This document shows positions 29,726 to 47,659 of a stretch of 47,659 nucleotides of DNA, piece after piece. A program made the translations under genes and the position numbers. Below the pieces are notes generated by a model, which did no database searches, was not told the DNA's origin, and saw nothing but the letters and a program-made list of their open reading frames with translations. The stretch is from Alphaproteobacteria bacterium (GTDB taxonomy: Bacteria > Pseudomonadota > Alphaproteobacteria > Caulobacterales > Aquidulcibacteraceae). How positions within the stretch are numbered: the first letter of the stretch is position 1; each line of letters opens with the position of its first letter. Location of the stretch: assembly GCA_027488965.1 (NCBI GenBank), contig JAIYAO010000176.1, positions 1 through 47,659 on the forward strand, written 5' to 3'.

Positions 29726-30361
29726 ATGTCTACCGAGCCCGCCCGCCGCTGGTCCCGTCGTTCTGATGCGCGCCCGGATGAAATCCTGGACGCGGCGCTC
29801 GAGGAATTCGAGGCCGCCGGGTTCGACAGTGCCCGCATGGAGGACGTCGCGCGCCGGGCCGGGATCTCCAAGGCCGGCGTCTACCTCTACTTCGACAGCA
29901 AGGAAGCGCTGCTGAAGGCGCTGATCCGCAGGGAGATCACGCCTGTCGCCGCCCGGGTGGAGGTGCTTGCGAAGGCCGGCGAGGCGGATCCGGCCGTCGC
30001 GCTGAAACGCATTTCCGGCGTGGCGCTCTTGCTGCTCGCGCAGCCGCGCATTTTTGCGATTCCGCGCCTGGTCATCTCGATTTCGCAGCGCTTCCCGGAC
30101 ATCGCCGCCCTTTACCGAACCGAGGTGCTGGACCGTCTGCGCGCCGCCCTGACCGGCCTTATCCGCAGCGGCATCGCGCTCGGGCAGTTCCGCGCCGACA
30201 TCGATCCGGAACTGGCGATCCGCACCATCGCAGGTCCGATCATGTTTGAAGCCTTGTGGCGCAATGTGCTCAGTGGCGCACCGGCCATTGCCGATCCGGT
30301 GGAGTTTGCACGGCGGCACATTGACTATGTCCTCCATGGCATCGCGGCGCTGCGGCCATGA
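29726..30361 (+). CDS. TetR/AcrR family regulator of the efflux operon
   Basis: 211 residues. The N-terminal HTH (about 15-62) contains ILDAALEEFEAAGFDSARMEDVARRAGISKAGVYLYFDSKEALL. The C-terminal ligand domain belongs to the common TetR_C group. The start ATG lies within 11 bases of the operator palindrome, and the stop overlaps the next ATG (ATGA), so it is the first gene of the efflux operon and probably its local repressor. Confidence 0.92.
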   Translation: MSTEPARRWSRRSDARPDEILDAALEEFEAAGFDSARMEDVARRAGISKAGVYLYFDSKEALLKALIRREITPVAARVEVLAKAGEADPAVALKRISGVALLLLAQPRIFAIPRLVISISQRFPDIAALYRTEVLDRLRAALTGLIRSGIALGQFRADIDPELAIRTIAGPIMFEALWRNVLSGAPAIADPVEFARRHIDYVLHGIAALRP

Positions 30362-31245
30362 AGAAAGCCATCCTCCTGGTCGCGGCCTGCGCGCTCACCG
30401 GCTGCACAAAGCCGCCGAGCGATACGATGCAGGGCTACGGCGAAGCGCAGTACGTCTATGTGGCAGCCGAGGATCCCGGACGCCTGTCGCAACTGCTCGT
30501 GAAGGAAGGTGACACCGTCGCCGGCGGCGCGCCGCTCTTCCGGCTCGATCCCGCACGTCAGAGAATCACCGCCGAAGGCGCTGGCGCAGCCGCGTCCGCC
30601 GCCGCCGCCCGCACGTCCGGTAACGGCGCCTTCGTGGAAGCGCTGCGCGCGGCGCAGGCCAATGCCGCGCTCGCGAACGCCACCTATGCGCGCTCGCAAA
30701 CGCTGCACGCGAAAGGCTTCGTCGCGCAGGCGCGCCTCGACATCGACGCCGCCGCGCTGCGTGTGGCGAACGCCTCCGTCGCGGAAGCGCGCGCCAACCT
30801 GAACGCCGCACTGCGCGAGAACGGCGCACCGGAAGCAGATGCACGACTGGCGCGTCGCCGGGTCCGCGATCTTGAGGTCACCGCGCCAACGGGCGGCCGC
30901 GTCGAGCGCGTCTATCATCGCGCGGGCGAGGTGCTCGGCGTCGGCGCGCCGGTGCTGGCCTTGCTGCCCGAGGGCGGGATGAAACTCCGCTTCTTTGCGC
31001 CGGAACGCCTGCTGTCGGCGCTGCGCAGCGGCGGCGGCGTTTCGATCCGTTGCGATGGATGCCCGCCGAACCTCAAGGGCCGCATCACCTATGTCGCCAC
31101 CGAGCCCCAGTTCACGCCGCCGGTGATTTACAGCCTTGAGCAGCGCGACAAGCTCGTCTTCCTTGTCGAAGCGACGCCGGATGATGCAACGCACATCCGT
31201 CCTGGACTGCCCGTGGACGTCACCCTCAACCGCGCACGCGAATGA
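30358..31245 (+). CDS. HlyD-family periplasmic adaptor lipoprotein
   Basis: 295 residues with a lipobox LTGC (Cys16). The lipoyl-like half (YVYVAAEDPGRLSQLLVKEGDTVAGGAPLFRLD), a long helical hairpin rich in Ala, and the return segment VTAPTGGRVERVYHRAGEVLGVGAPVLALLPEG are those of membrane fusion proteins of YbhG type. It would bridge the ABC-2 permease to an outer-membrane channel. It is coupled by ATGA overlaps to the genes on both sides. Confidence 0.92.
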   Translation: MKKAILLVAACALTGCTKPPSDTMQGYGEAQYVYVAAEDPGRLSQLLVKEGDTVAGGAPLFRLDPARQRITAEGAGAAASAAAARTSGNGAFVEALRAAQANAALANATYARSQTLHAKGFVAQARLDIDAAALRVANASVAEARANLNAALRENGAPEADARLARRRVRDLEVTAPTGGRVERVYHRAGEVLGVGAPVLALLPEGGMKLRFFAPERLLSALRSGGGVSIRCDGCPPNLKGRITYVATEPQFTPPVIYSLEQRDKLVFLVEATPDDATHIRPGLPVDVTLNRARE

Positions 31246-32165
31246 CCGGCGAGATCGTCATCGACGTCCACGGCCTCACCAAACGGTTCGGGGCGCTGAC
31301 GGCCGTCGAAAACGTGTCGCTCAAGGTGCCCCGGGGCGCGATCTACGGATTTCTCGGCCCCAACGGCTCCGGCAAGACCACGACCATCCGTATGGTGTGC
31401 GGCTTGCTCAAACCCGATGCGGGCAGCGGCCAGTGCCTCGGCTTCGACGTGCTGCGCGACAGCGCGCGCATCAAGGAACGCGTCGGCTACATGACGCAGC
31501 GGTTCTCGCTCTACGAGGACCTGTCGATCCGCGAGAATCTGGAATTCATCGGCCGCCTCTACGCGCTCGATGATCTCGCAACGCGGGTGGAGAAAGCGCT
31601 GGAAGACCTCGGTCTGCAGAGCCGCGCGAAGCAACTGGCGGGCACGTTGTCCGGCGGCTGGAAGCAGCGGCTGGCGCTGGCCGCGTGCATGATCCACGAA
31701 CCCGATCTCCTGCTGCTCGACGAGCCGACGGCCGGTGTCGATCCGAAGGCGCGGCGCGACTTCTGGGACCAGATCCGGCGTTATGCCGCTTCAGGCGTCA
31801 CCACGCTGGTTTCCACGCACTACATGGACGAGGCCGTGCAGTGCGATTCCATCGCCTACATCGCCTACGGCAAGATGCTCATCGACGCGCCGACACGGGA
31901 GATCCCGGCCCATGTCGGTCTCAAGGCGCGACGCGCGGTGGCGGACGATCTGGATGCGCTGGCAGCACACCTGCGGGGAAGCCCGGGCATCGACCTCGTC
32001 GCCCGCTTCGGCGCCGAGCTGCACGTCTGCGCGATGACGGATGAGGCCCTTGATCGTGCGATGGCGACCGCCGCAGGCATGCCGGGCTTTGGGGCGACGC
32101 GCATCGACGCGGGACTGGAAGAGATCTTCATCCACCTGATGGCACAGACCGAAGGCAAGGCCTGA
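31242..32165 (+). CDS. ABC transporter ATP-binding protein
   Basis: 307 residues. Walker A GPNGSGKTTT lies at 39-48, the signature LSGGWKQR near 137-144, Walker B LLLLDEPTAGVD near 157-168, and the H-loop STHYMDEA. The C-terminal ~90 residues form the extension usual for ABC-2 drug exporters of the YbhF type. YbhF itself is a tandem fusion; here a single ATPase domain is present. The ATGA overlap with the adaptor gene and the 2-base gap to the permease show one operon. Confidence 0.95.
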   Translation: MTGEIVIDVHGLTKRFGALTAVENVSLKVPRGAIYGFLGPNGSGKTTTIRMVCGLLKPDAGSGQCLGFDVLRDSARIKERVGYMTQRFSLYEDLSIRENLEFIGRLYALDDLATRVEKALEDLGLQSRAKQLAGTLSGGWKQRLALAACMIHEPDLLLLDEPTAGVDPKARRDFWDQIRRYAASGVTTLVSTHYMDEAVQCDSIAYIAYGKMLIDAPTREIPAHVGLKARRAVADDLDALAAHLRGSPGIDLVARFGAELHVCAMTDEALDRAMATAAGMPGFGATRIDAGLEEIFIHLMAQTEGKA

Positions 32166-32167
32166 CC

Positions 32168-33310
32168 GTGCCGGCGCAATCCTCCCTCTCCTGGTCGCGG
32201 GTGTTCGCGGTGTTCCTCAAGGAACTCGTGCAGATGCGGCGCGACCGCCTGACGTTCGCCATCATGATCGTGATGCCGGTGATGCAGCTCCTGCTGTTCG
32301 GCTACGCGATCAACACGGACCCGCGCCACATGCCGACGGTGGTGCAGGTGCGGGAGGAGGGCCCGCTGACGCGAAGCTTTCTCGCCAGCATCAAGGCGTC
32401 GACGTTCTTCGACATCGTCGCCGTCGCCCATCGCGACGATGAAGCTGACCGGCTCCTGCGCAGCGGCGACGCGATGTTCCTGATCGTCGTGCCGGAAGGT
32501 TTCGAAAGCCGCTTCGTGCGCGGCGAGCGGCCCCAGATCCTCATCGCCGCGGACGCCAGCGATCCTGTGGCCACTGGCGCCGCTGTGCCGGCGGTGGAAC
32601 AGATCGCCGCGCGCGCCTTCGCGCCGGACCTGGAGGGCGCGCTTTCCTACCTCAGCGCCGGGCCAGCGCCCTATGAGGTCGTCGCGCACCGGCGCTATAA
32701 TCCCGCCGGCATTACCGCGTTCAACATCGTGCCCGCGCTGCTGGGCGTCATCCTCACCATGACCATGGTGATGGTGACCTCCATCGCGCTCACGCGCGAA
32801 AGCGAGCGCGGCACGATGGAGACGTTGCTCGCGACGCCGGTCCGGCCCGTGGAGGTAATGATCGGCAAGACGACGCCCTACATTATCGTAGGCGCCATCC
32901 AGGTCGTTATGGTGATGGCGGCGGCGCGGCTGTTGTTCCACGTCCCGTTCACGGGATCGCTTGGCGCCTTCATCGCCGGCGTCACCGTGTTCCTGTTCGC
33001 CAACCTGATGCTGGGCTACCTCATCTCCACCGTGGCGCGCACGCAGATGCAGGCGATGCAGATGACGTTCTTCATCTTCCTGCCGTCGATCCTGCTGTCA
33101 GGGTTCATGTTTCCCTATCGCGCGATGCCGCACTGGGCGCAGGCCATCGGCGAGGCGCTGCCGCTAACGCACTTCCTGCGGCTGGTGCGCAAGATCGTGC
33201 TCAAGGGCGGAGACCTCGCCGCCGTGTTCAGCGACCTGGTCCCGCTGACGGGGATTCTCGTCGCCTTGACAACGCTGGCGCTGCTGCGGTTCCGGCGTAC
33301 GCTGGACTAG
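32168..33310 (+). CDS. ABC-2 type permease (YbhS/YbhR-like)
   Basis: 380 residues from a GTG at 32168. One helix lies near the N-terminus (LTFAIMIVMPVMQLLLFGYAI), then a large periplasmic loop of about 130 residues, then five helices from about residue 180 on. The segment EGVLLT-like GTMETLLATPVRPVEVMIGKTTPYI and the GFMFPYRAMPHWAQAIGEALPLTHFL end are ABC-2 hallmarks. Only one permease gene is seen, so a homodimer is likely. No outer-membrane factor gene follows. Confidence 0.94.
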   Translation: MPAQSSLSWSRVFAVFLKELVQMRRDRLTFAIMIVMPVMQLLLFGYAINTDPRHMPTVVQVREEGPLTRSFLASIKASTFFDIVAVAHRDDEADRLLRSGDAMFLIVVPEGFESRFVRGERPQILIAADASDPVATGAAVPAVEQIAARAFAPDLEGALSYLSAGPAPYEVVAHRRYNPAGITAFNIVPALLGVILTMTMVMVTSIALTRESERGTMETLLATPVRPVEVMIGKTTPYIIVGAIQVVMVMAAARLLFHVPFTGSLGAFIAGVTVFLFANLMLGYLISTVARTQMQAMQMTFFIFLPSILLSGFMFPYRAMPHWAQAIGEALPLTHFLRLVRKIVLKGGDLAAVFSDLVPLTGILVALTTLALLRFRRTLD

Positions 33311-33867: not shown

Positions 33868-34572
33868 ATGCCCCGACCGAGTTCAAGATCGACGCCCGTG
33901 CGTCAGCGCGCAGATTTGTCCCGTGACGGGATCATTGCAGCCTCACTTGAACTGATTGACGCCGAAGGTCTGGCTGCGCTGAACATGCGCGGTCTCGGTA
34001 TCGCGCTCGGTGCGTCCACCATGAGCGTCTATCGTCACTTCACGAACAAGACAGCGCTTCTGGACGCCGTCGTCGATAGCGTGATCCAAGGGTTTGTGCC
34101 GGCGCCAACTAAAGGTCGTTGGCAGGCGCAGGCGCGGACGCTTAGTCTTACAGTGCGCGGCGCGATGCTGGCGCATCCGCAGCTGGCGGATATGATCGGA
34201 CGAGAATTTCGCCGCTCGCCCACCTCGTTGCGTGTGAACACGGAGATTATCGAGCGGTTGCGGGACACCGGCGTGCCGATTGAGCTCCTGCCGGATGTCT
34301 ATTGGACGATCTCAAGCTACACCACTGGCTATGCGCTGCTTGAAGCACAGTCTCTGGTGCGACGCAAAGCGAGGCGCGGAAAGGTCTCGCGGGCTGACCG
34401 CGTGAAGAAGGTGACGGCGCTGCTGCGGGAGGTGGACGACATTCCGAGACAGGCGGTTGAGACTGTCGCAAACGTGTTGTCGCGGCCGCTCGATGATGGA
34501 CAATTTCTGTTTGGGCTGGACTGCATCATCGTCGGCATCGAGCAACGGATAGCCGCTCACAAGGACGCGTAG
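33868..34572 (+). CDS. TetR/AcrR family regulator
   Basis: 234 residues. The HTH (about 20-65) contains IIAASLELIDAEGLAALNMRGLGIALGASTMSVYRHFTNKTALL. The C-domain of about 150 residues is of the TetR_C_1 type seen in TetR(Class H)-like and catabolic regulators. It is convergent with the esterase gene, overlapping it by 16 bases at the stops. No operator is evident near it. Confidence 0.9.
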   Translation: MPRPSSRSTPVRQRADLSRDGIIAASLELIDAEGLAALNMRGLGIALGASTMSVYRHFTNKTALLDAVVDSVIQGFVPAPTKGRWQAQARTLSLTVRGAMLAHPQLADMIGREFRRSPTSLRVNTEIIERLRDTGVPIELLPDVYWTISSYTTGYALLEAQSLVRRKARRGKVSRADRVKKVTALLREVDDIPRQAVETVANVLSRPLDDGQFLFGLDCIIVGIEQRIAAHKDA

Positions 34573-35696
34573 ACCGCCTCCACAATACCTGTGAAACGAG
34601 GATCAGGGGCTCCCTGCGGCTCGCGCATGAAGTTCATGGCATATGCGACGCCGATCCGCTGTACGGGATCAGCGAAGGCGAAGGAGCCGCCCCAGCCGTG
34701 ATGACCGAATGCGCTGGGATTGGGTCCGTACACGCCCATGGCCTTGTTGATGGCGAACCCGACGCCCCAACTCATGGGAAAGCGCAGCACGAGGTCTTCG
34801 TTCTCGATCTGGATGGTCGTCACGGCGTCCAGCGCCGCCTTGCTCACGAGTTCGACCCCCGCAACTCGGCGGTCGGTGGCGAGGGCGCCGTAAAGTCGGG
34901 CGAGACCGCGCGCGTTGCCCTGGCCTGCGGCGGACGGCGTTCCCTGGGCACGCCAGGCGCGTACATTGGCGAGCGCGGCGCGCACCGGCACGTTGACCTG
35001 CGCGAGGCGCTGGTACTCGTTGAAGGTCTCATGGCCGCCGGACTCTGGATTGCCGTCATGAACGATCTCGGCGACCCGGCTCTCCTCGCTGGGCGGCAAG
35101 CCCATGTAGAAATCGATGCCCAAGGGGTCTGCGATCTCGTCGCGGAAGTATTGGCCCACCGATTTTCCTGTGACGCGCTTGAAGAGGCCGTCGCCGAGGG
35201 GGCCTATCGTCAGCGCGTGGTAACCGGACCTGGAGCCGACGGGCCAGTGCGGAGCCTCTGTGGCGAGGAGCGCGGCGAGAAGGTCAGTGTTGAGAAGCTC
35301 AGCCTCGGTGAGTTGCCTTGCAGGGCCGCAAAGCCCCGCCTGATGCGAAAAAAGCTGCGCGACCGTTACGCGTGCTTTGCCGTTTGCTGCAAACTCCGGC
35401 CAGTAGTCTGCGACGGGGCGGTCCAGCGCCAGGCGTCCCTGGTCCAAGAGCCGGGCCACGCAAAGCGCCATCACACCCTTGGTGGTAGACCACACATTGA
35501 CCAGCGTATCACCTCGCCACGGCCGCTCGCGCGCCCCGTCCGTGAAGCCGCCCCACAAGTCGACGACGATCTCCCCGTCCTTGCAGATGCTCAGCGAGGC
35601 GCCGATGTCACCGTGTTCTGCGAAGTTGCGCTGGAACGCGTTGGCGACGGCCGCGAAGACGGGCGGGCAGGTTCCGGCGAGGGGGAGTGCAGTCAT
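34557..35696 (-). CDS. beta-lactamase family serine hydrolase/esterase
   Basis: 379 residues of the class C beta-lactamase/EstB family: SxxK is STTK at residues 70-73, the Tyr is in SGYHAL (Tyr159), and the third motif is HHGWGG near 335. The EstB group hydrolyses esters rather than beta-lactams, and no signal peptide is visible, so a cytoplasmic esterase is likely. It lies 72 bases downstream of the TonB receptor gene on the same strand and may share its promoter. Confidence 0.9.
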   Translation of the reverse strand: MTALPLAGTCPPVFAAVANAFQRNFAEHGDIGASLSICKDGEIVVDLWGGFTDGARERPWRGDTLVNVWSTTKGVMALCVARLLDQGRLALDRPVADYWPEFAANGKARVTVAQLFSHQAGLCGPARQLTEAELLNTDLLAALLATEAPHWPVGSRSGYHALTIGPLGDGLFKRVTGKSVGQYFRDEIADPLGIDFYMGLPPSEESRVAEIVHDGNPESGGHETFNEYQRLAQVNVPVRAALANVRAWRAQGTPSAAGQGNARGLARLYGALATDRRVAGVELVSKAALDAVTTIQIENEDLVLRFPMSWGVGFAINKAMGVYGPNPSAFGHHGWGGSFAFADPVQRIGVAYAMNFMREPQGAPDPRFTGIVEAVYASL

Positions 35697-35768: not shown

Positions 35769-38105
35769 TCACTTCCGGAAGGAGAGGGTGATGCCGTAGG
35801 TCTGGGGCATGCCAGCGAACCGCACTGTGGTGTCGAGGTTCGCATTGCCGGTGGTCCAGTAGTAGGTGTCGCCGACGTTGCGCGCCCAAGCCATGAGCTT
35901 CCATTCGCCGTCTCTGGCTTCGATGCCCGCACGGAGGTCGACCAGAGTGTAGGCGTCCACCTCAAGGCGTGCGAGTTCCCCGAGTTGGCTGTTGGTGTCT
36001 CCCTGGTAAGAGAGATTGCCACCGACGAATGCGTCGAAGCGTTCCGTGGCCGACCAAGTGTAAGACGTGTCGGCCACAAACTGCCATTCAGGGGTGTTGG
36101 GGAAGGATTCTCCGCCGAAGTTTTTCAGCAGGCCGCTTGGATCGAAGTTCGTGAAGTTGTCGAGAATTTCGGAGACGATATAGGAACCGCCCGCCGAGAC
36201 CTTCAGCCCGTCGATCGGCGCCCAGTCGACCTGCATCTCGACGCCGTTGATCTCGGAGTTCGGGACGTTCACGAGACGCAGCAGCGGCCCGAGGAAGGGA
36301 TCGGAGACTTTTCCAAGAATTTGCTTGTCAGAATAGTCGTAGCGGAAGACCGCGCCGTTGAGCTGAAGCGTGCGCTCAAGGAACGTCGCTTTGAACCCGG
36401 CCTCATAGGCAATGACCGACTCCTGCGTCGCGGGCGTAAGCTGGCTTGCGACCGTGGCGGCGAGGGTGGGGAAGCTGCCGGCCTTGTAGCCGCGGCTCAC
36501 ATTGGCATAGAGCATGATCCGCTCCGCCGGGTTCCACTCCGTGCCGATGCGCCAAGAAACGTTGTCTTCCTTCAGGCGATCGAACACCCGTCCCGGGGTG
36601 AAGGTGGCGTCCGCGGTGACACACGCGCCCGCTGGTATCACCGTGCCAAGGAGCGCGCCGAACGAGGCGGCTGCGACGCCATCGCCGGTGTCGGACGTGC
36701 AGCCGTTGAAGTCGTTCTTCATTTCAGTGTAGCGCACGCCGCCATAGATCGAGAGCGAGTCCGTCAGCGAGAGCTCGCCGCTCGCGAACACGGCCCAGGT
36801 CGTTATGTCTTGACGGCTTTCGTCACGAAACGTGTTGAGCGGCGGTGTGAAGGCGATGGCGACAGTGCTTTGGGTTTCATTGAGGAGGCCGACCTCCTCC
36901 ACGACATCGTGCGCGTAGGTGGCGCCGACGACGAAGTGGCCGCGATCATAGTCGCCCGCCAGTCGCAGCTCTTCTGAGACGGACTCGATGTCGCCGATCG
37001 TCAGCTGGTTCAGATTGCTCAGCGCCGTGCCGTCGATATCCTGCAGCTGCCGCTGCGAAAAGGCGCTAAACGAGGTGAGCGAGGTGAGGGTCAGGTGATC
37101 CGAGAACTCGTAGTCGACCCTGACATTCGCCTGTCGAAAATCGTTGTCGCGACCGTAGTCGTCACCCGGATTGAAGTCTGCGGCGCGGTTGTCTTCTGGC
37201 GCCAGCGGATATCCGAGCAGGCCGGGAACGAAGCCTGCGAGGGGCGGAATTGAAGGCGTGATGGCGATGAGTTGTCCGGCCTGCACTTCAGAGCGGTCTT
37301 TCCAGCCGTTGAGATTGACCTCGACGCTGAGTGTGTCCGTCGGTTTCCAGTCCAACAAAAGGCGGCCATTGGTGAAGTCGCCAGCGCCATTGGTATCGCC
37401 GCTCGTGTAGCTGCGTTGCCAGCCATCCATGCGTGTGTGCTCAAGGGCAAGGCGTGCATTGAGCGTTTCCGCAAGGGGTCCGCTCACGAAGCCGCCGGCG
37501 CTCAGCGATGAATAATTGCCCGCGCTCAGCGAGCCTCCAGCCTCAAAGCTCTCTGTGGGCCGGGCCGCAACGTAGTTGATCGCACCTCCGGTGGCGTTCT
37601 GGCCGAAGAGCGTGCCCTGGGGCCCTTTGAGCACCTCCACCCGGGCAAGATCGAGACTCGCGCCCCGCGTTTCGATGGCGAAGGGGATCGGCGCTTCGTC
37701 TGAGTAAATGCTGACCGTCGGGCGGCCGCCGAGACTGATGTCGCTGAATCCAACGCCGCGAAGCGTGAAGATCGGCGAACCGACATACGAGTCCGCGTAG
37801 ATGAAGGCGGGTGTGATCTTGGTCAGGTCGCGCGGTTGGGTGATACCGGCGTCAGAGAGGCGTTCTGCCGTGATGGCCGTGATCGACATGGGCACCGAAT
37901 TGGCGCTCTCCGCGCGCTTTTCGGCGGTCACGATGATTTCATCGAGGCCGACTGACGGCTCCGGCGGTTCCGTGGCGGTCTGGGCGTGTACAGCGGGTGA
38001 AACAAGGAAGGCTGCCATGGAGGCGCCCGTCGCAATGAGCCTGCGAAGGTTCAGCACGCGCTTGTCCTTCGCGGTTGCAAGACGGGTTGTATTCATGTCG
38101 GCCAT
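35769..38105 (-). CDS. TonB-dependent outer-membrane receptor
   Basis: 778 residues with a signal peptide (cut near AVHAQ), a TonB box region (DEIIVTAEKR), the plug domain with SPIFTLRGVGFSDISLGGRPTVSIYSDE and VEVLKGPQGTLFGQNATGGAINYV, and a 22-strand barrel. The C-terminus YGITLSFRK is typical. Alphaproteobacterial receptors of this group import hydrophobic or polycyclic compounds besides siderophores. Its promoter region carries the bipartite motif at 38207-38247. Confidence 0.95.
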   Translation of the reverse strand: MADMNTTRLATAKDKRVLNLRRLIATGASMAAFLVSPAVHAQTATEPPEPSVGLDEIIVTAEKRAESANSVPMSITAITAERLSDAGITQPRDLTKITPAFIYADSYVGSPIFTLRGVGFSDISLGGRPTVSIYSDEAPIPFAIETRGASLDLARVEVLKGPQGTLFGQNATGGAINYVAARPTESFEAGGSLSAGNYSSLSAGGFVSGPLAETLNARLALEHTRMDGWQRSYTSGDTNGAGDFTNGRLLLDWKPTDTLSVEVNLNGWKDRSEVQAGQLIAITPSIPPLAGFVPGLLGYPLAPEDNRAADFNPGDDYGRDNDFRQANVRVDYEFSDHLTLTSLTSFSAFSQRQLQDIDGTALSNLNQLTIGDIESVSEELRLAGDYDRGHFVVGATYAHDVVEEVGLLNETQSTVAIAFTPPLNTFRDESRQDITTWAVFASGELSLTDSLSIYGGVRYTEMKNDFNGCTSDTGDGVAAASFGALLGTVIPAGACVTADATFTPGRVFDRLKEDNVSWRIGTEWNPAERIMLYANVSRGYKAGSFPTLAATVASQLTPATQESVIAYEAGFKATFLERTLQLNGAVFRYDYSDKQILGKVSDPFLGPLLRLVNVPNSEINGVEMQVDWAPIDGLKVSAGGSYIVSEILDNFTNFDPSGLLKNFGGESFPNTPEWQFVADTSYTWSATERFDAFVGGNLSYQGDTNSQLGELARLEVDAYTLVDLRAGIEARDGEWKLMAWARNVGDTYYWTTGNANLDTTVRFAGMPQTYGITLSFRK

Positions 38106-38206: not shown

Positions 38207-38247
38207 CTAGGGCTGAAAGTCTCGGGGAAGGGCGGACATTTTCGGAC
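38207..38247 (-). promoter_or_regulatory. bipartite regulon motif, TonB receptor copy
   Basis: On the minus strand, GTCCGAAAATGTCCGC (38247-38232), 15 bases, then TCAGCCCTAG (38216-38207). It lies about 100 bases upstream of the TonB receptor start and just after the araC-type stop codon. The first 16 bases are identical to the monooxygenase copy at 42400 and the spacing is the same. Confidence 0.7.
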
Positions 38248-39303
38248 TCAGTTCGCGCAGGCGCGCTGGCTGCGGTAGGTCGACGGGCTGACGCCGAACC
38301 AGCGCTTGAAGGCGCGCCGAAAGCTGCGCGTGTCGCCGTAGCCGAGCTGTTCGGCGATTGTCTCCACCGTCAGGGCGGCGTGAATCAGTGATGTCGATTT
38401 CTGCATGCGCACTTCATCGCGCACTCTACGGAAGGACCGGCCTTCCTGCTCAAGGCGTCGCGCAACTGTTTTTGTCGACATGCCACAGCGCAACGCCACC
38501 TCTTGCTGATCGACGCCCTGCAGCAATGCGGCGCGCACCCGTTCTGTGAACGCCCCCTCCGGCTTGCCCGCCGAAACACCGATGGCAGCAGTGCAGAGCA
38601 TCTTGTAGGCGCCGTCGAGCCAAGCGTTCACGTCGCGCTCCATGACGGTGGCTTCTGCGCTTTCGGGTGCGAAGGTGATTTCCAGCTCGTCGCCGGCGTA
38701 GGCGATTGGCGCGCCAAGGATATGCAGGAGGGTGGAGCCAGCGTCCTTGCGGGCCGCGGGTGCGCGAACGCGCACGACCGAAAGCGGCTTCCCGGCCAGC
38801 CAACTGAAGACTGCGAAGTAGACGGCGGCTGTTCCCTCCAGCATGATCTGGTGGAGTTCGCTTCCCGGCGCGCTCGGACGCCATCGTAGTGCAACGCCAT
38901 TAGGCTTGCGGGTAACACTTACGGCCACGTCGGGGGTGATCAGCGCTGCAGTTTCGCTATAGGCGTTCATCGCTTCGAGGATCGTCGGGCACAACATCAT
39001 CCGCGCAATCAGGAGGCCCGTGCTGCCGGGCTTCAGCCTGTTGGCGGAGACGCAGTGCATTTCGTCGCCGATGACAGCAGCATGCTCGACGAATATGCGC
39101 CAGCACGCGTCGACCGGCACGATGTGCGCAGGCGCGTCGGCGGCAAGGGGTACGCCATGCGCTTGCAGCAGTTGTTCGGCGTAGGCCGGCGGGCGGCCGT
39201 CGGCGTTCAGATAGATCCGGATGTCCCTGAGCGACATGCCCGGAGACGCCGCAGCGGGCGTCTCGCCCCGAACCATCTTTGAAACGTGCACAGGAGAAGA
39301 CAT
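38248..39303 (-). CDS. AraC family transcriptional regulator (arabinose-binding-domain type)
   Basis: 351 residues from the ATG at 39303 with GGAG six bases upstream; the ATG at 39321 is less well placed. The N-terminal ~200 residues match the domain found in OruR/GbpR-like AraC activators (PVDACWRIFVEHAAVIGDEMHCV). The C-terminal HTH pair contains LRCGMSTKTVARRLEQEGRSFRRVRDEVR and VETIAEQLGYGDTRSFRRAFKRWFGVSPSTYR. It lies within the catabolic cluster next to one copy of the bipartite motif and is the best candidate for its binder. Confidence 0.92.
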   Translation of the reverse strand: MSSPVHVSKMVRGETPAAASPGMSLRDIRIYLNADGRPPAYAEQLLQAHGVPLAADAPAHIVPVDACWRIFVEHAAVIGDEMHCVSANRLKPGSTGLLIARMMLCPTILEAMNAYSETAALITPDVAVSVTRKPNGVALRWRPSAPGSELHQIMLEGTAAVYFAVFSWLAGKPLSVVRVRAPAARKDAGSTLLHILGAPIAYAGDELEITFAPESAEATVMERDVNAWLDGAYKMLCTAAIGVSAGKPEGAFTERVRAALLQGVDQQEVALRCGMSTKTVARRLEQEGRSFRRVRDEVRMQKSTSLIHAALTVETIAEQLGYGDTRSFRRAFKRWFGVSPSTYRSQRACAN

Positions 39304-39477
39304 GACAGTCTCCGTCGTCATGGATCGCGCCGTGGCTGGCGCCGTTTTTCGCGGACTACCGTGGAGACGATGCGTACGCGCGAGGCGTACAACGTACACA
39401 TTCAAGTGGACAGTCGCAAGCGCGCGCAGTAGATCGACGGGATCGGCGCTCTGTGCGCTGCGATCGTGGAGGCCGTC

Positions 39478-40287
39478 TTGAACAGTGCTGCCAGCCGGTC
39501 TGGGGGTCGCTTCGCGGGCAAATCGGTCGTCATAACGGGCGCGGCGAGCGGCATCGGCCGCGCCTGCGCGCTGCGCCTGGCGGAGGAGGGGGCCGATATC
39601 GTTGGGCTCGACCTGTCGGCTGAAGGCCTTGGCGCTCTGGCGGCGGAAGTCACGGCGCGCGGCGCTCGATGCGAAACGGTGGTCGGCAGTGTCGCGGATC
39701 TGGACGTCGTCGCCGCCGCGATCCAGCGGGCGACGGACGTGTTCGGCGGCCTCGACGGGCTTGTGAACAACGCCGGGATTGGCGGCCCGATGCAGCCGTT
39801 CGAGACGGTTAAGTCCGCAGACTTCGACAAGATGATTTCCATCAACCTGAAGCCCGTCTGGTTCGGCATGCAGGCGGCCTGTGCGCCTATGCGGGCGCGC
39901 GGCGGCGGCGGCATCGTGAACGTGGCATCCATGGCCGGCCTTAGGCCGAATCGGAATCATGCGCTCTACGGCATGACGAAAGCGGCCGTGATCAGTCTAA
40001 CCCACCACGCGGCCATGGATTATGCGAGAGACAATATCCGCGTGAACTGCCTGTGTCCCGGTCCGGTGGAGACGCCGATCTTCGAACAGATGCGCGCAGC
40101 GCTCGCGCCCGCGGCCTACGAGTCAGCGAGGGTGCGCGTTCAGCACCGCACCCTGATGAACCGGTTCGGAACGGCCGAGGAACAGGCGGCGGCAGTCGCC
40201 TATCTCCTGAGTGACGAGGCGTCCTTCGTCACCGGCATCGCCATGCCCGTCGACGGGGGCTGGTCGATTTCCGATGGTCGTGTCTGA
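39478..40287 (+). CDS. SDR family oxidoreductase
   Basis: 269 residues with TGAASGIG near residues 20-27, LVNNAGIGGP, and YGMTK as the Tyr-Lys pair. The end SFVTGIAMPVDGG is typical of hydroxysteroid/cyclic-alcohol type SDRs. The start chosen is the TTG at 39478 because GGAGG lies 5 bases before it; a GTG at 39466 has no ribosome site. It is divergent from the AraC gene. A good copy of the bipartite motif is not seen upstream. Confidence 0.9.
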   Translation: MNSAASRSGGRFAGKSVVITGAASGIGRACALRLAEEGADIVGLDLSAEGLGALAAEVTARGARCETVVGSVADLDVVAAAIQRATDVFGGLDGLVNNAGIGGPMQPFETVKSADFDKMISINLKPVWFGMQAACAPMRARGGGGIVNVASMAGLRPNRNHALYGMTKAAVISLTHHAAMDYARDNIRVNCLCPGPVETPIFEQMRAALAPAAYESARVRVQHRTLMNRFGTAEEQAAAVAYLLSDEASFVTGIAMPVDGGWSISDGRV

Positions 40288-40306
40288 TCGCGCGCGCCCA
40301 GCTAAA

Positions 40307-40347
40307 GGCCGAAAATGTCCCCTGGGGCGTGGCCGGTGCGGCCCTTT
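40307..40347 (+). promoter_or_regulatory. bipartite regulon motif, OYE-operon copy
   Basis: GGCCGAAAATGTCCCC (40307-40322), 15 bases, then GCGGCCCTTT (40338-40347). The first element matches 14 of 16 bases of the other two copies and the spacing is identical. It lies 87 bases upstream of the old-yellow-enzyme start and just after the preceding SDR gene. Confidence 0.6.
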
Positions 40348-40434
40348 TGGACGGCTTAGCGTTCGCTAGAACCGCAAGATGCGACACCTTGAGGCGCTGG
40401 TGATGACACGCGACGCTGACCGGGCGGGAGAAAG

Positions 40435-41529
40435 ATGAAAACGCTGTTCGATCCGATCCGATTGGGTGCACTTGCAGCGCCCAATCGCATCCTGATGGCG
40501 CCGCTCACGCGCACGCGAGGGACCAAGGAGCACGCGCCCACCGACATGATGTCTGCGTATTACGCGCAGCGCGCCGGTGCAGGCCTGATCATCTCGGAAG
40601 CCATTGGCGTCAGCCGACAAGGTCTGGGCTGGCCGTTTGCGACCGGTTTGTGGCGTGACGACCAAGTGGCAGGATGGAAGCGGGTGACCGATGCGGTGCA
40701 TGCGGCCGGCGGGCGTATCATCGCTCAACTGTGGCACATGGGCCGGATGGTGCATCCGAGCTTTATCGATGGCGCAGCGCCCGTCTCCTCTTCGGCGACG
40801 CGCGCACCGGGCAGGGCGCACACCTATGACGGTCGTGATCCGTACGCGCTTGCACGGTCGCTCGAACCCGCCGAGATTGGGGGCATCGTGGAAGACTATT
40901 GCCGTTGTGCGGCAAACGCGATGGCGGCGGGCTTCGATGGCGTTCAGGTCCACGCCGCCAATGGCTACCTCATCGACCAGTTTCTTCGCGACAATGCCAA
41001 TCATCGCGATGACATCTATGGCGGGTCCATCGAGAATCGCGTGCGGTTTCTGCGTGACGTCACAGACGCCGTCGTCGCGGAAGTGGGCGGCGACCGCACC
41101 TCAGTGCGTCTGTCGCCCAACGGCGACACGCAGGGCGTGAACGACAGCAATCCCGAACCGCTGTTTGTCGCCGCCGCCCAGACCCTGGGGGACATCGGCA
41201 TTGCGTTTCTCGAACTGCGTGAGCCCCCCCGTGACGGCACGCTCGGCAAGGGCGACCGCGATCCCCTCGCACCCGCGATTCGGCGCGCTTTCCGCGCGCC
41301 GCTTGTGCTCAATTCCGATCTGACGCCTGAACACGGGGCGGCTCTCGTGGCCTCTGGCGCTGCTGATGCCATATCGTACGGGCGCCTCTTTATCTCCAAT
41401 CCTGACCTGCCGATTCGAATTGCGCATAGGCTTCCGCTTGCACCGTGGGACGCCTCAACATTCTACGCGCAGGGTCCCGAAGGCTACATCGACTACGCCT
41501 TTACGGCGCGTGAGGAGGCGCGCATATGA
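40435..41529 (+). CDS. old yellow enzyme family alkene reductase
   Basis: 364 residues, an FMN TIM barrel: NRILMAPLTRTRG near 17-29, AQLWHMGRMVHP near 97-108, the His/Asn pair in VQVHAANGYLIDQFLRDNAN, the strongly conserved DDIYGGSIENRVRF, and the C-terminal FMN-phosphate segment YGRLFISNPDLP. Enzymes of this NemA type reduce activated C=C bonds of enones. It is coupled by an ATGA overlap to the next SDR gene. Confidence 0.95.
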   Translation: MKTLFDPIRLGALAAPNRILMAPLTRTRGTKEHAPTDMMSAYYAQRAGAGLIISEAIGVSRQGLGWPFATGLWRDDQVAGWKRVTDAVHAAGGRIIAQLWHMGRMVHPSFIDGAAPVSSSATRAPGRAHTYDGRDPYALARSLEPAEIGGIVEDYCRCAANAMAAGFDGVQVHAANGYLIDQFLRDNANHRDDIYGGSIENRVRFLRDVTDAVVAEVGGDRTSVRLSPNGDTQGVNDSNPEPLFVAAAQTLGDIGIAFLELREPPRDGTLGKGDRDPLAPAIRRAFRAPLVLNSDLTPEHGAALVASGAADAISYGRLFISNPDLPIRIAHRLPLAPWDASTFYAQGPEGYIDYAFTAREEARI

Positions 41530-42395
41530 GCTGCGGTCGTTTACAGGACAAGGTGGCCGTCATCACGGGCGGTGCGAGCGGGATCGGGCTTGCGACCGCG
41601 CGGCGTTTCCTCGCCGAAGGAGCGCTTGTGATGATCGGCGACTTCAATGCCGAAGCGGGTGAAGCAGCCCATGCTCAGCTCATCGCCGAGGGGTTTGGAT
41701 CGCGTGTCGCGTTCACCAGAGGCGACGTCGCGCAGGAAGCTGACGTGGAGCAGCTGATGGCGACAGCGCTCGACAAGTTCGGCGGCCTCGACATCGTCTT
41801 TAACAATGCCGGCATCGGCGGTGCGATCGGTCCCATCGTGGAAACCGATGTGGACCATTGGGACGTGACGTTTGCGGTGCTCATGCGGGGCGTATTTCTC
41901 GGCGTGAAGCACGCGGCGCGGGTCATGATGCACCGCGACGGAGGCTCGATCATAAACACCGCCTCGATTGGCGGCGTCGCCGGCGGGGTCCTGCCTACGG
42001 CGTACTCGGCGGCGAAGGCCGCTGTGGTCAGCTTCTCGCGCAATGCCGCGACCGAGCTCGCCGAGTACCGCATTCGTGTGAACGCTGTATGTCCTGGCAT
42101 CATCTTCACGCCGCTGATGCACAACGGGCGCGAGACCCAGGCGGAGGCCGTCATCGCCGACATCCAGCCTTGGCCCGACCGCGGAGAGCCACACCATGTG
42201 GCGAGCGCTGTGCTGTATCTCGCCAGCGATGACAGCGCTTTTGTCACCGGAGAGGCGCATGCCGTCGACGGCGGCTATCTCGCCAACGGACTCTTGCGCG
42301 TGCATCCGCTCCCCGGCGCCAAGAAGAAGGCGGACTACGCAGGCATCACCTATGGCAATACCGGTCAGGTCCGCGACGTGCGCCGGCTGCCATGA
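41526..42395 (+). CDS. SDR family oxidoreductase
   Basis: 289 residues with TGGASGIG near residues 15-22, FNNAGIGGA and AYSAAKAA for the Tyr-Lys pair, ending with a ~35-residue Lys-rich extension (GAKKKADYAGITYGNTGQVRD) beyond the usual SDR end. It overlaps the old yellow enzyme stop, so both enzymes are translated together; the monooxygenase gene follows about 100 bases later behind its own motif copy. Confidence 0.92.
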   Translation: MSCGRLQDKVAVITGGASGIGLATARRFLAEGALVMIGDFNAEAGEAAHAQLIAEGFGSRVAFTRGDVAQEADVEQLMATALDKFGGLDIVFNNAGIGGAIGPIVETDVDHWDVTFAVLMRGVFLGVKHAARVMMHRDGGSIINTASIGGVAGGVLPTAYSAAKAAVVSFSRNAATELAEYRIRVNAVCPGIIFTPLMHNGRETQAEAVIADIQPWPDRGEPHHVASAVLYLASDDSAFVTGEAHAVDGGYLANGLLRVHPLPGAKKKADYAGITYGNTGQVRDVRRLP

Positions 42396-42399
42396 CGGC

Positions 42400-42440
42400 G
42401 TCCGAAAATGTCCGCTGGTCCCGCCGTTGTTCGGCCCTAG
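42400..42440 (+). promoter_or_regulatory. bipartite regulon motif, monooxygenase copy
   Basis: GTCCGAAAATGTCCGC (42400-42415), 15 bases, then TCGGCCCTAG (42431-42440). It lies 61 bases upstream of the monooxygenase start and 5 bases after the preceding SDR stop. Its first 16 bases equal those of the TonB receptor copy. Confidence 0.7.
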
Positions 42441-42501: not shown

Positions 42502-44046
42502 ATGATGTCGTACACCTCGCAAGCCGCGCAGCACTTCGACGTGCTCATCATCGGCGCCGGCATCTCAGGCATCGGCGCGGCCTACGAACTCAAGCGGCAG
42601 TGCCCCGGCTTGTTGTTTGCGGTGCTGGAAGGGTTCGAAAGTTTCGGCGGGACATGGCTCTGGCACAAGTATCCCGGCGTCCGCTCCGACAGCGATCTCT
42701 ATACCTTCGGCTATCGTTTCAAGCCGTGGCTCGGCGCGCCCATCGCATCAGCGCAGGAAATCCTGAAGTATCTCGGTGAAGTCATCACAGAGAATGATCT
42801 CGACCGGCACATTCACTACCAGCATCGTGTCGTGACGGCGGCGTGGAATTCCCAGACCGCGCTCTGGACCATCGACGTCACCTGCGGGGAAGATGCCACG
42901 CCGGCGCGCTTCACTTGCAACTTCCTCTGGATGTGTCAGGGGTATTACCGCCACGCGGAAGGACACACGCCTGCCTGGCCGGACATGCACCGCTTCGCCG
43001 GTCCCGTCATCCATCCACAGACATGGCCGAAGGATCTGTCGTACAAGGGCAAGAAGGTCGTCGTCATCGGTTCCGGCGCCACGGCGGCGACGGTGGTTCC
43101 AGCCATTGCGGACGACTGCGCGCACGTCACGCTACTGCAGCGTTCACCTTCCTATTTCTCTCCCGGCCGCAATCGCCATTGGTTGGCTGATACGCTCAGG
43201 GAATTGTCGGTGGACGAGACCTGGATCCACGAAATTGTGCGCCGTCGCATTGTCGCCGATCAGGCCAAGTTCCTGCGCCACGCCATTGACGAGCCGGAGG
43301 CGGCGACCGAGGAGCTGCTAAAGGGCGTGCGCGCCTATCTGCCCGACGACGTCGTCGACGCCCATTTCACGCCGTCCTACCGCCCCTGGCGCCAGCGCAT
43401 CGCGGTGGCGCCGGATGGCGATCTTTTCAAGTCCATTACCTCCGGTAAGGCGTCGATCGTCACCGATCACATTGAACGCTTTGTGGAGAACGGCATCCTG
43501 CTCAAGTCCGGGCAGACGCTCGACGCCGACATCGTCGTCACCGCGACCGGCTTCGATATCTGCGTTCTGGGCGACATCCGCTTCGTTGTTGACGGAGAGG
43601 CGCTCAATTTCGCCGAGACGGTCACCTATCGTGGCATGATGTTCACAGGCGTGCCCAACATGGCCTGGATATTCGGCTACTTCCGCGCGGCAAGCTGGAC
43701 GCTTCGCGTGGATCTGGTGGCGGATTTCGTCTGTCGCCTGCTGGAACACATGAAGGCGCGGGGCGCCAGGACAGTTGAGGTCGCGCTACGCCCCGAGGAC
43801 TGGGACATGCAACTTCTCCCCTTTATCGACGATGAAGTCTTCAATCCGGGTTATCTGATGCGCGGCATGCATCTTCTTCCCAAGCGTGGCGACAAGCCGG
43901 AGTGGGCCCATAGTCAGGACTATTGGTGGGAGCGGGATGTCTTGCCGCTCGTCAGCCTCGATGACCCCGCCTTCATCTATGACGGCGTGCGGTCTTCACC
44001 GGCGACAGGGGAAAGCCAAGTTCTTGCCGTCCGCGCGATCGCCTGA
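42502..44046 (+). CDS. Baeyer-Villiger flavin monooxygenase
   Basis: 514 residues. The FAD motif GAGISG lies at 18-23 and the Baeyer-Villiger fingerprint FAGPVIHPQTWP at 165-176 (pattern FxGxxxHxxxWP). The NADPH motif GSGATA follows about 15 residues later, then DADIVVTATGFDI. Size and motifs are close to EthA-type enzymes. Such enzymes insert one oxygen from O2 next to a ketone carbonyl, giving an ester or lactone. Either of the first two ATGs may be the start. Confidence 0.94.
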   Translation: MMSYTSQAAQHFDVLIIGAGISGIGAAYELKRQCPGLLFAVLEGFESFGGTWLWHKYPGVRSDSDLYTFGYRFKPWLGAPIASAQEILKYLGEVITENDLDRHIHYQHRVVTAAWNSQTALWTIDVTCGEDATPARFTCNFLWMCQGYYRHAEGHTPAWPDMHRFAGPVIHPQTWPKDLSYKGKKVVVIGSGATAATVVPAIADDCAHVTLLQRSPSYFSPGRNRHWLADTLRELSVDETWIHEIVRRRIVADQAKFLRHAIDEPEAATEELLKGVRAYLPDDVVDAHFTPSYRPWRQRIAVAPDGDLFKSITSGKASIVTDHIERFVENGILLKSGQTLDADIVVTATGFDICVLGDIRFVVDGEALNFAETVTYRGMMFTGVPNMAWIFGYFRAASWTLRVDLVADFVCRLLEHMKARGARTVEVALRPEDWDMQLLPFIDDEVFNPGYLMRGMHLLPKRGDKPEWAHSQDYWWERDVLPLVSLDDPAFIYDGVRSSPATGESQVLAVRAIA

Positions 44047-44064: not shown

Positions 44065-44418
44065 ATGATCAAGATGATGGTTGCGATCCAGCGTCAGGTG
44101 CATCTGACGCGCCCGCAATTTCTTGACTACTGGTCGGATGTTCATGCGCCGCTGGTGGTGGAGCTGTCGCAGGTGCTAGGCATATGTCGGTATCTGCAGT
44201 GTCATCCTGCGTCGGCGCAAGGCGCCGAGGACGCTGGCGGCGTTCGCAGCTGCGACGGCGTCGCCGAAGTCTGGTTTGAGTCCGTTGACCCAGAGCATGT
44301 TCGGCGCGACCACCCCGCCTTTCGGGCAGCCGCAAAGCGCCTTCGCATGGATGAAGACAATTTCATGGATCGATCGCGCTCTATCGTATGGTGGGGCACC
44401 GAGCGGACTATTCTCTGA
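44065..44418 (+). CDS. EthD domain protein
   Basis: 117 residues of a dimeric alpha-beta-barrel EthD type: IKMMVAIQRQVHLTRPQFLDYWSDVHAPLV at the start, with the conserved YW..VHAPLV, and a HPAFRAAAKRLRMDEDNFMD stretch. EthD proteins occur beside oxygenases, with varied roles including decarboxylation of polyketide or small-ring intermediates. It starts 18 bases after the monooxygenase stop, in the same unit. Confidence 0.85.
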   Translation: MIKMMVAIQRQVHLTRPQFLDYWSDVHAPLVVELSQVLGICRYLQCHPASAQGAEDAGGVRSCDGVAEVWFESVDPEHVRRDHPAFRAAAKRLRMDEDNFMDRSRSIVWWGTERTIL

Positions 44419-44949: not shown

Positions 44950-47659
44950 ATGGCGGGATGGTTTGAGGCGATTGGAGATTGGGTGTTGACGTGGGCTGCG
45001 GCCTTGGGGGCGCCGAGCATTTTCGTTTCGTCAGAGGCGGTCGGCGCCGCGGTCACCGGCGGAGGCGGGGCGCTCGCGTTTCTGCTGGTCATATGGGCCA
45101 CCTATATCTCCGGGGGCGAAAAGCGCGCCTTCAAGAAGGCCTTCGGGCCGTTCTGGACCACGTTCAAGACCGCCGTCACCAACCCGGTGAAAGGCGTCGA
45201 AGTCGGGTTTGAGCAAGCTCAGCGGGTCGCTCAGGATTTGCTTGGTCAGACAAACGGCGGGCCTTCCGCCCAAATTCAGGCGGCTCTGGAAGACGCGATG
45301 TGGACAGCCGCGCGCACAGAGCGGAAAGGCTCCTCTAGGGCGCGGCAAACGCAAATCGACGCGGCCTTGATCAAAGCCGCAGCGGTCGCTTTGCCAATCA
45401 GCGAAGTGGCGCGCCTTTATCCCAATGAAACCGACATCACGGGAGCGTTTCTTCAGGCTGCCGAAGCCGTGATCTCTGACCGGGCGGACTTTCTCAGTGT
45501 GCGTGACGTGTTGGCCGCGCTTTATCCGGCGCTGCTCAAACAGGAAGATGTGGTCAATCGGTTGGTTCCGGCGCTGATCGCCGACGGACGTGATGCCGCC
45601 AAGCGCGCGGAAGACGCCGCAAATGCGGGGCGTGCAGCCGCCGAGGGAGCAAAGACCAACACACAGACGATCATCGCCTGGCTGCCGGGCTTTCATCCGA
45701 CTGGCCTGACCAAACTGGAGCCTGACGCCATGGCCCGGCTCACGAATAACCGTCCGACCGCTTTGCTCGTCGCCGATTTCGGCGTGATACCATATGACGA
45801 TAGCCGCGGGCTGTTGGGTAAGCTCGGTGACGGTAAGCCTGAAACACTGCTCGGCTGGGCGACAATTGGCGGTGGAGTTGAAGCGCGCCTCTACGCCGCT
45901 GCGGGTGGTTACGGCAAGACGCGCCTCGCGCTTGAAGCCGTGGAAGCGCTGAACAAAACTCGAGCGTGGAAGGCCGGGCTGCTCAATCGCAATGCCTTGG
46001 CTGAAGCGCTGGCCAAGCCAAAAGGGGGCGGGCCTTCGCCATTTGAAGCGGAACTGCGCGGGCGCGGTGCAAAAGGGTTGTTCGTCGCCATCGATTATGC
46101 CGAAACGCGGATCGAGCAGTTGCAATCGCTGGCCGAGGCGCTGGCGCAAGCGGGGACTGGCGGACCGGTGCGCGTTGCACTGATGGCCCGAGGCGATGGG
46201 TGGTGGGCGCCGTTCCTTGATGGCCTTATCGAAAAGCAGAAGGCGCTTTTCCAACCCCGACCAATCGCAGCGATCGAGACTGAGATCGCCCCGCCGCATC
46301 GCCCGGCCTTCTTTGCAGACGCATGCGTGGCGTTTGAGGAAAAGCTGCGCGCAGCGGATCCGAAGCTGGTGAATTCGAACTGGCAAACGAGCCCTGCGGA
46401 TCTGGAGCGCTTACTCAACGAGGGCAGCCCGCTTTTCCTGGCGTTCCAGGCCTTCCTGCACGTGCGCGGTGCAGCACTGGATGTGAGCCCGTTGGCGGCG
46501 ATGGCGGGTGAAGAGCGCGCGCATGTGAAGCGCGCGTTGAAGGGCGAGGATCGGCTCGTGCTTGCGACGCAGCGCGCAGCGGCCTTGGTGACCTTGTGCC
46601 AGGGATTAGGCGCGCAGCAGCTGAACGACAATGTGTTGACCAGACTGACCGAACTCGCGATCGCGCACGATCCGGCTTTCATCGGTGATGATGCGAAAAC
46701 ACAGGTGCGCACCGCGGACGCAATCAACGCGTCGCTGACCACGCTGTATCAGTCTGGCCCCTGGCTTCAGCCCATCCTGCCCGACATCCTTGGCGAACGG
46801 ATCGTGGCGGAAGCGGTGACGCAATCACCTGGCTTGCTCGGCGCTTACTTCGCGGCGCACAGCGCTGACGCCCGCGCCGCCTTTACCGTGCTCAATCGGA
46901 TCAGCCGGCCGGGGCCAGACGGCGCGCCGGTGCATGATGGGACGGTTGTAGATGGTGCCCAATCGCAGGTGCAGGCCGCCCTCGCGGGCCCCGCTCTTGC
47001 CGCCCTCGCGGACGCCGCCGCCGCCGCGATGAACGCCGAACATGGCAATCTGCAGGTTCCGGTTCTCGCGGCGCTAAACATGCTGACCGGCGCAGAGCAG
47101 GCGGAAGCCGCTTTGGCCCTAATGCGCGCCGGCGCCCGCCACCTCAATCCCAACGCAACACCCGCCCGTCTTCGTTCTCTCTTCGGTGAGGCGGCGAGAA
47201 AAGCCGCGTCGCAAGCCGCAGCGCCCATCCAAGCCCGAAATGAGGAAAGTGCGCTTCGGCGCCAACGTGCTGAAGACGCCGACATTCGGGCAATGCATCT
47301 TTCGAGCGCCGGCGATCGGCCCGGCGCGCTGGCCGCAGCGCAAGAGGCCGTCGCGCTCTATCGGGCCTTGTCCAAAGAGAACCCGCAAGCCTTCGCACCC
47401 AATCTGGCGGGGTCCGTCTCGAACCTCGCGAGCAGACTGTCAGAAGCCGGTGATCGGCCCGGGGCGCTGGGCGCAGGGCAAGGGGCCGTCGCGCTCTATC
47501 GGGCCTTGGCCAAAGAGAACCCGCAAGTCTTCACGCCTGGTGTCGCGATGTCCGTCTCGAACCTCGCGAGCTTCTTGTCACAAGTCGGTGATCGGCCCGG
47601 CGCGCTGGCCGCAGCGCAAGAGGCCGTCGCGCTCTATCGGGCCTTGGCCAAAGAGAACC
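44950..47659 (+). CDS. membrane-anchored STAND-like NTPase with TPR repeats, C-terminus beyond window
   Basis: The frame runs from ATG 44950 to the window edge without a stop, 903 codons. Two hydrophobic segments lie near residues 10-26 and 41-57 (ALAFLLVIWATYI). A helical linker of about 250 residues follows. The P-loop AAGGYGKT is at 317-324, Walker B LFVAIDYAE is at 377-385, and VRVALMARGDGWW at 407-419 resembles the STAND-type LARSAGDWW segment. A helical region leads to TPR units from residue 787: AGDRPGALAAAQEAVALYRA, period 46, at least three copies. Such proteins sense a ligand with the repeats and act through the N-terminal part. Which effector activity this one has is unknown. The opposite strand carries only a shadow frame. 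Confidence 0.85.
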   Translation, partial: MAGWFEAIGDWVLTWAAALGAPSIFVSSEAVGAAVTGGGGALAFLLVIWATYISGGEKRAFKKAFGPFWTTFKTAVTNPVKGVEVGFEQAQRVAQDLLGQTNGGPSAQIQAALEDAMWTAARTERKGSSRARQTQIDAALIKAAAVALPISEVARLYPNETDITGAFLQAAEAVISDRADFLSVRDVLAALYPALLKQEDVVNRLVPALIADGRDAAKRAEDAANAGRAAAEGAKTNTQTIIAWLPGFHPTGLTKLEPDAMARLTNNRPTALLVADFGVIPYDDSRGLLGKLGDGKPETLLGWATIGGGVEARLYAAAGGYGKTRLALEAVEALNKTRAWKAGLLNRNALAEALAKPKGGGPSPFEAELRGRGAKGLFVAIDYAETRIEQLQSLAEALAQAGTGGPVRVALMARGDGWWAPFLDGLIEKQKALFQPRPIAAIETEIAPPHRPAFFADACVAFEEKLRAADPKLVNSNWQTSPADLERLLNEGSPLFLAFQAFLHVRGAALDVSPLAAMAGEERAHVKRALKGEDRLVLATQRAAALVTLCQGLGAQQLNDNVLTRLTELAIAHDPAFIGDDAKTQVRTADAINASLTTLYQSGPWLQPILPDILGERIVAEAVTQSPGLLGAYFAAHSADARAAFTVLNRISRPGPDGAPVHDGTVVDGAQSQVQAALAGPALAALADAAAAAMNAEHGNLQVPVLAALNMLTGAEQAEAALALMRAGARHLNPNATPARLRSLFGEAARKAASQAAAPIQARNEESALRRQRAEDADIRAMHLSSAGDRPGALAAAQEAVALYRALSKENPQAFAPNLAGSVSNLASRLSEAGDRPGALGAGQGAVALYRALAKENPQVFTPGVAMSVSNLASFLSQVGDRPGALAAAQEAVALYRALAKEN
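47308..47659 (+). repeat. 138-bp tandem repeats coding for TPR units
   Basis: Units start at 47308, 47446 and 47584, exactly 138 bases (46 codons) apart, each opening with GGCGATCGGCCCGG or a close variant and sharing long identical stretches such as GCCGTCGCGCTCTATCGGGC. The high DNA identity shows recent expansion or ongoing exchange between units. The array continues past the window end. Confidence 0.9.

Follow-up and report, generated by a model that had tools for sequence, protein, structure and literature searches.

A candidate bipartite operator at three promoters of a Baeyer-Villiger gene cluster and its predicted AraC/XylS-type regulator

Known regulators of Baeyer-Villiger genes and the cluster in the window

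Activators of the AraC/XylS type that control genes of the Baeyer-Villiger monooxygenase (BVMO) type are already known, namely MekR, ChnR and APR1. The MekR/mekAB system of Pseudomonas veronii resembles the cluster described here in that an AraC/XylS regulator activates an operon for a BVMO plus an ester hydrolase, and ChnR, also of the AraC/XylS type, has a BVMO gene as its target. For ChnR/PchnB of Acinetobacter johnsonii, PMC4738008 describes a cyclohexanone-responsive regulator of a monooxygenase promoter. APR1 of Acinetobacter venetianus, according to an excerpt of PMC11784139, is an AraC/XylS-type positive regulator of the flavin monooxygenase AlmA; unlike the regulator described here, it is autoregulated and has long-chain alkanes as inducer, and the excerpt shows no operator motif for it.

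The MekR operator is quoted in a passage of PMC4514859 as CACC-N5-CTTCAA-N6-CACC-N5-CTTCAA, and the XylS boxes are given there as TGCA-N6-GGNTA, occurring twice. In the MtlR operator at PmtlE of Pseudomonas fluorescens, a strong upstream half-site is followed by a weak downstream half next to the -35 region, with boxes 10 bp apart (PMC4514859).

The window, i.e. the whole stretch of 47,659 nucleotides that was analysed, carries three copies of a bipartite element upstream of three transcription units (table 1). The likeness to MekR lies in the regulator type, the targets and the operator layout (directly oriented boxes spaced at about 10 bp). Compared with the MekR operator as quoted, the window element has another box sequence, and its second half is further off and not a full repeat. 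The regulon predicted here would also add a TonB receptor and the OYE/SDR units to the MekR-type targets.

Table 1. Candidate operators and genes of the cluster, with positions in the window
Feature	Position	Strand	Remarks
Site A (candidate bipartite operator)	38207..38247	-	exact consensus match; kept in same-genus G132
Site B (candidate bipartite operator)	40307..40347	+	both of its blocks unchanged in G132
Site C (candidate bipartite operator)	42400..42440	+	blocks identical in G132, spacer 7/18
Family VIII (beta-lactamase-fold) carboxylesterase, second after site A	34557..35696	-	PF00144
TonB-dependent receptor, first gene after site A	35769..38105	-	PF00593, PF07715
AraC/XylS-type regulator, 351 aa, proposed binder	38248..39303	-	PF12625 N-terminus, HTH_18 C-terminus
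Short-chain dehydrogenase 1 (SDR1), divergent from araC, no operator copy upstream	39466..40287	+	
Old yellow enzyme (OYE, ene-reductase), first after site B	40435..41529	+	PF00724; PDB 3wjs 5e-142
Short-chain dehydrogenase 2 (SDR2), overlaps OYE stop	41526..42395	+	PF13561
Type I BVMO, first after site C	42502..44046	+	fingerprint; PDB BVMO matches
EthD-domain protein, directly after BVMO	44065..44418	+	PF07110; 75% identical in G132

The gene functions proposed in the initial annotation (receptor, esterase, BVMO pathway genes and AraC-type regulator) were borne out. The BVMO contains the fingerprint FxGxxxHxxxW(P/D) as FAGPVIHPQTWP at residue 165, and also GGTWLWHKYPG. The esterase shows the motifs STTK and HHGWGG, and its best PDB match was the carboxylesterase 5gmx. 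The EthD-domain gene, which was absent from the initial annotation, lies 18 bp behind the BVMO gene and probably belongs to the same unit.

In the regulator, the C-terminal domain with two helix-turn-helix motifs scored above the cut-offs for both HTH_18 (70.5 bits) and HTH_AraC (47.7 bits), and the N-terminal ligand-binding domain is of the PF12625 type (57.8 bits, cut-off 27.6). The NCBIfam equivalogs most like it are QhpR, CypR and GliR, but its scores (115.9, 86.9 and 85.4) fell short of their curated cut-offs (250, 500 and 570, respectively), and the regulator belongs to none of them. The structure prediction of the regulator was poor (pLDDT 64) and gave the binder model no support.

Structure and recurrence of the element

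All three copies reported in the initial annotation were found, each with a block 1 of 16 bp, a gap of 15 bp, and a block 2 containing CCT. Site A reads GTCCGAAAATGTCCGC-N15-TCAGCCCTAG on the minus strand, site B GGCCGAAAATGTCCCC-N15-GCGGCCCTTT and site C GTCCGAAAATGTCCGC-N15-TCGGCCCTAG. As had been described, block 1 is identical in sites A and C, and site B agrees with it at 14 of 16 positions. The block 2 core had been given as GCCCT; the CCT proved invariant, but the G preceding CCCT did not. In eight copies from three genomes the invariant part is GKCCRAWANTGTCCSC, followed by CCT at positions 37-39. Sites A, B and C lie 101, 87 and 61 bp upstream of the start codons of the TonB receptor (receptor/esterase unit), OYE (OYE-SDR2 unit) and BVMO (BVMO-EthD unit), respectively, in agreement with the 60-105 bases estimated before, and each begins at most 20 bp from the stop codon of the preceding gene.

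Block 1 has the form GKCC-N6-GTCC, which in every copy is a direct repeat of 10-bp period and not a palindrome, and it corresponds to an AraC/XylS half-site, in which two boxes stand about one helical turn apart. When block 2 was compared with block 1 as a shifted direct repeat, no shift tested exceeded an identity of 0.39, and no clear repeat was found. A promoter consensus scan detected no sigma-70 -10/-35 pair at any of the three promoters.

Four 16-mers within three mismatches were present in the window (0.70 expected), a number reached in none of 100 shuffles. With leave-one-out matrices the omitted site scored 26-31 bits, and no other position in the window scored above 14.5 bits. Scanning of the 3.28-Mb genome with the consensus gave three perfect matches, all within this cluster, and none with one or two mismatches, all remaining matches carrying three. 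Chance recurrence, which had been considered very unlikely, is excluded by the shuffles, the genome scan and the leave-one-out matrices. Many copies at unrelated genes had been named as evidence that would speak against a regulon, and with three exact matches in the genome these were not found.

The gap between araC and SDR1 holds no operator copy (best score there -2.5 bits). A palindrome, GTACAACGTAC, lies in this gap (window 39387-39399) and is mostly conserved in G132; as a recurrent element it was rejected, with one exact occurrence in the window and a three-mismatch count within chance.

In G132, a genome of the same genus, the whole cluster is kept at 75-92% identity together with all three sites, and the regulator ortholog is 87% identical. 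At site C of this genome the gap and flank were rewritten, and the blocks are identical at 21 of 21 positions. The public record of a Hyphomonadaceae MAG contains a regulator of 86% identity and the same three sites.

Association of the element with the AraC-type regulator

A more distant locus was found in G335, a genome of another family, where the regulator is 44-46% identical and the GC content is 46%, compared with 67% in the window. The esterase there is 64% identical and the TonB receptor only 24%, and the remaining genes differ (two PhyH dioxygenases, an epoxide hydrolase-like protein and an acyl ligase). A matrix built from the three window sites alone was applied to 18 kb of this locus. 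Two G335 sites ranked first and second (23.4 and 20.5 bits), compared with at most 17.0 bits for the best and 13.4 bits for the second-best match in 60 first-order simulated sequences. This ranking is a genuine prediction, because the matrix had not seen those sites. Both are perfect matches to the consensus with the same spacing to CCT, and they occupy the gaps on both sides of araC, 90-91 bp before the genes of a TonB-receptor/esterase unit and a divergent PhyH unit. The regulon reading of the initial annotation thus passes an out-of-sample test. Between the window and G335 regulators, conservation is higher in the HTH region than in the N-terminus, with 55 of 97 identical positions in the DNA-binding domain (19 of 28 in HTH2) and 96 of 230 in the N-terminus. 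A second AraC protein with PF12625 is encoded near the G335 cluster (L017 13573-14622), and no copy of the element was found at the promoter of its gene.

The regulator is present in three of the order's 398 genomes (the window's own, G132 and G335), and exactly these three contain at least two exact sites (two to three each, all at the regulator locus). In 391 genomes the element does not occur, and each of the four others has one stray exact match. Three of these stray matches fall at one and the same orthologous place within a long coding frame, and the fourth is a lone site in a further genome from the family to which the window belongs. A reversed control pattern gave one match in the 398 genomes. 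The perfect scores in the three genomes arise partly by construction, since the consensus was drawn from their sites; the low number of matches outside them does not. With strict cut-offs, and the genome of the window itself set aside, no further orthologs of the regulator were detected in the class (385 genomes), in a phylum sample (369) or in another family (62), and none were found on plasmids. Only two independent lineages in the genomes searched have the regulator.

It was also found that 13 loci with BVMO homologs of 61-68% identity and no regulator reached at most 13.7 bits, compared with at least 32.7 bits for true sites. One such paralog is present in G132 besides the regulated copy, and was included in the whole-genome scan. 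The BVMO gene was rejected on these grounds as the gene that the motif follows. Loss of the motif where the genes are kept had also been named as evidence against the regulon; element-free BVMO homologs do exist, but they lack the AraC gene as well, and they appear to form a separate lineage or to be paralogs. Several of these homologs (L057-L069) were reported with one in-frame stop, which may lie at the match end. Since BVMO homologs without the regulator have no element, and since the local TetR gene has no ortholog in G335, the motif follows the AraC gene, whose product is very probably the binder.

A TetR-type protein (33868-34572) had been named as the alternative binder; it would keep the three units repressed in the absence of an inducer. 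Its gene adjoins that of the esterase and is conserved in G132 (87% identical), but G335 has no ortholog (only a 49-residue HTH match, E 7e-6) although it keeps two perfect sites, and TetR was rejected as the binder for this reason. Moreover, TetR operators are normally palindromic, whereas the 10-bp repeat of block 1 is direct. Because of these two observations and the co-occurrence of the element with the AraC gene across the 398 genomes, AraC is strongly favoured, and control by the TetR protein is very unlikely. We also consider it improbable that AraC binds the element but represses, or that another DNA-binding protein travelling with the cluster is the binder. Some AraC-family proteins act as repressors, and the role of AraC at the element is read from sequence; however, its ortholog is the only regulator common to the G335 locus and the window, which argues against another binder. 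The position of the sites 61-101 bp before the starts with no good -35, as at activator-dependent promoters, is a weak argument against repression. Fixed spacing and a position before genes would also suit the promoter of an alternative sigma factor with blocks 1 and 2 as recognition boxes. This reading is practically out of the question, as the 39 bp from the start of block 1 to the end of block 2 are too long for -35/-10, none of the genes read at the window or G335 locus encodes a sigma factor, and nearly all genomes of the order lack the element.

Predicted mode of action and cargo of the regulon

The element is highly likely to be the operator of the local AraC/XylS-type regulator, which would activate the three units with its ligand. 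By analogy with MekR, MtlR and XylS, the regulator is very probably an activator. One AraC subunit would recognise GKCC-N6-GTCC of block 1 through its two helix-turn-helix motifs. Block 2, whose terminal CCT lies some three to four helical turns from where block 1 begins, may form a weaker contact for a second subunit, either adjacent to the -35 region or overlapping it. We infer this dimer rather than observe it, because block 2 shows no clear repeat and no promoter consensus was found. The weak downstream half of MtlR is the best analogy for the weak block 2, although MtlR governs a sugar-alcohol regulon through different boxes, and its second half is a clear repeat (PMC4514859).

A ligand-bound AraC dimer on the element would activate the three units together, the ligand perhaps being one of the pathway's ketones, alcohols or esters. 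Unit A may serve uptake by the TonB receptor and ester hydrolysis by the family VIII esterase, unit B enone reduction by OYE and alcohol oxidation by SDR2, and unit C ketone-to-ester oxygenation (BVMO, EthD). From the enzyme classes we infer that uptake is followed by reduction of the enone and oxidation of the alcohol, after which the ketone would be oxygenated to an ester or lactone that the esterase hydrolyses.

The literature searched, mostly outside subscription journals, yielded no published account of the motif, in line with the initial annotation. The 14-mer or its complement occurs in eight papers, which judged by title and journal are all mammalian studies; these matches are probably primers. 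What appears to be new is this regulon and its well supported candidate operator, within ordinary bacterial gene control. The regulator-operator pair is testable, and defines from sequence alone which genes of the Baeyer-Villiger cluster belong together; the regulon reading also marks which TonB receptor takes up the substrate. Once the inducer is identified, the compact operator and regulator could become a biosensor.

It is about as likely as not that the regulator and operator, together with the esterase, make up a portable control core, in which the DNA code was kept across regulators of the above divergence and GC contents while the catabolic cargo was exchanged. On this joint reading, BVMO, OYE and SDR would be the cargo in one genus and PhyH, epoxide hydrolase and acyl ligase that in the other family, where a non-orthologous receptor would occupy the same slot. 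A conserved operator with exchanged cargo would make a small, clean case of regulon rewiring.

Two further regions of the window were noted. A large frame (44950-47658) leaves the window; it contains repeated TPR-like units and weakly matches nSTAND-NTPase, and the 32 kb that were read around the G132 cluster held no counterpart. Genes for TetR, HlyD-type, ABC ATPase and ABC-2 permease proteins lie consecutively at 29726-33310 and probably form an efflux operon that includes its own repressor.
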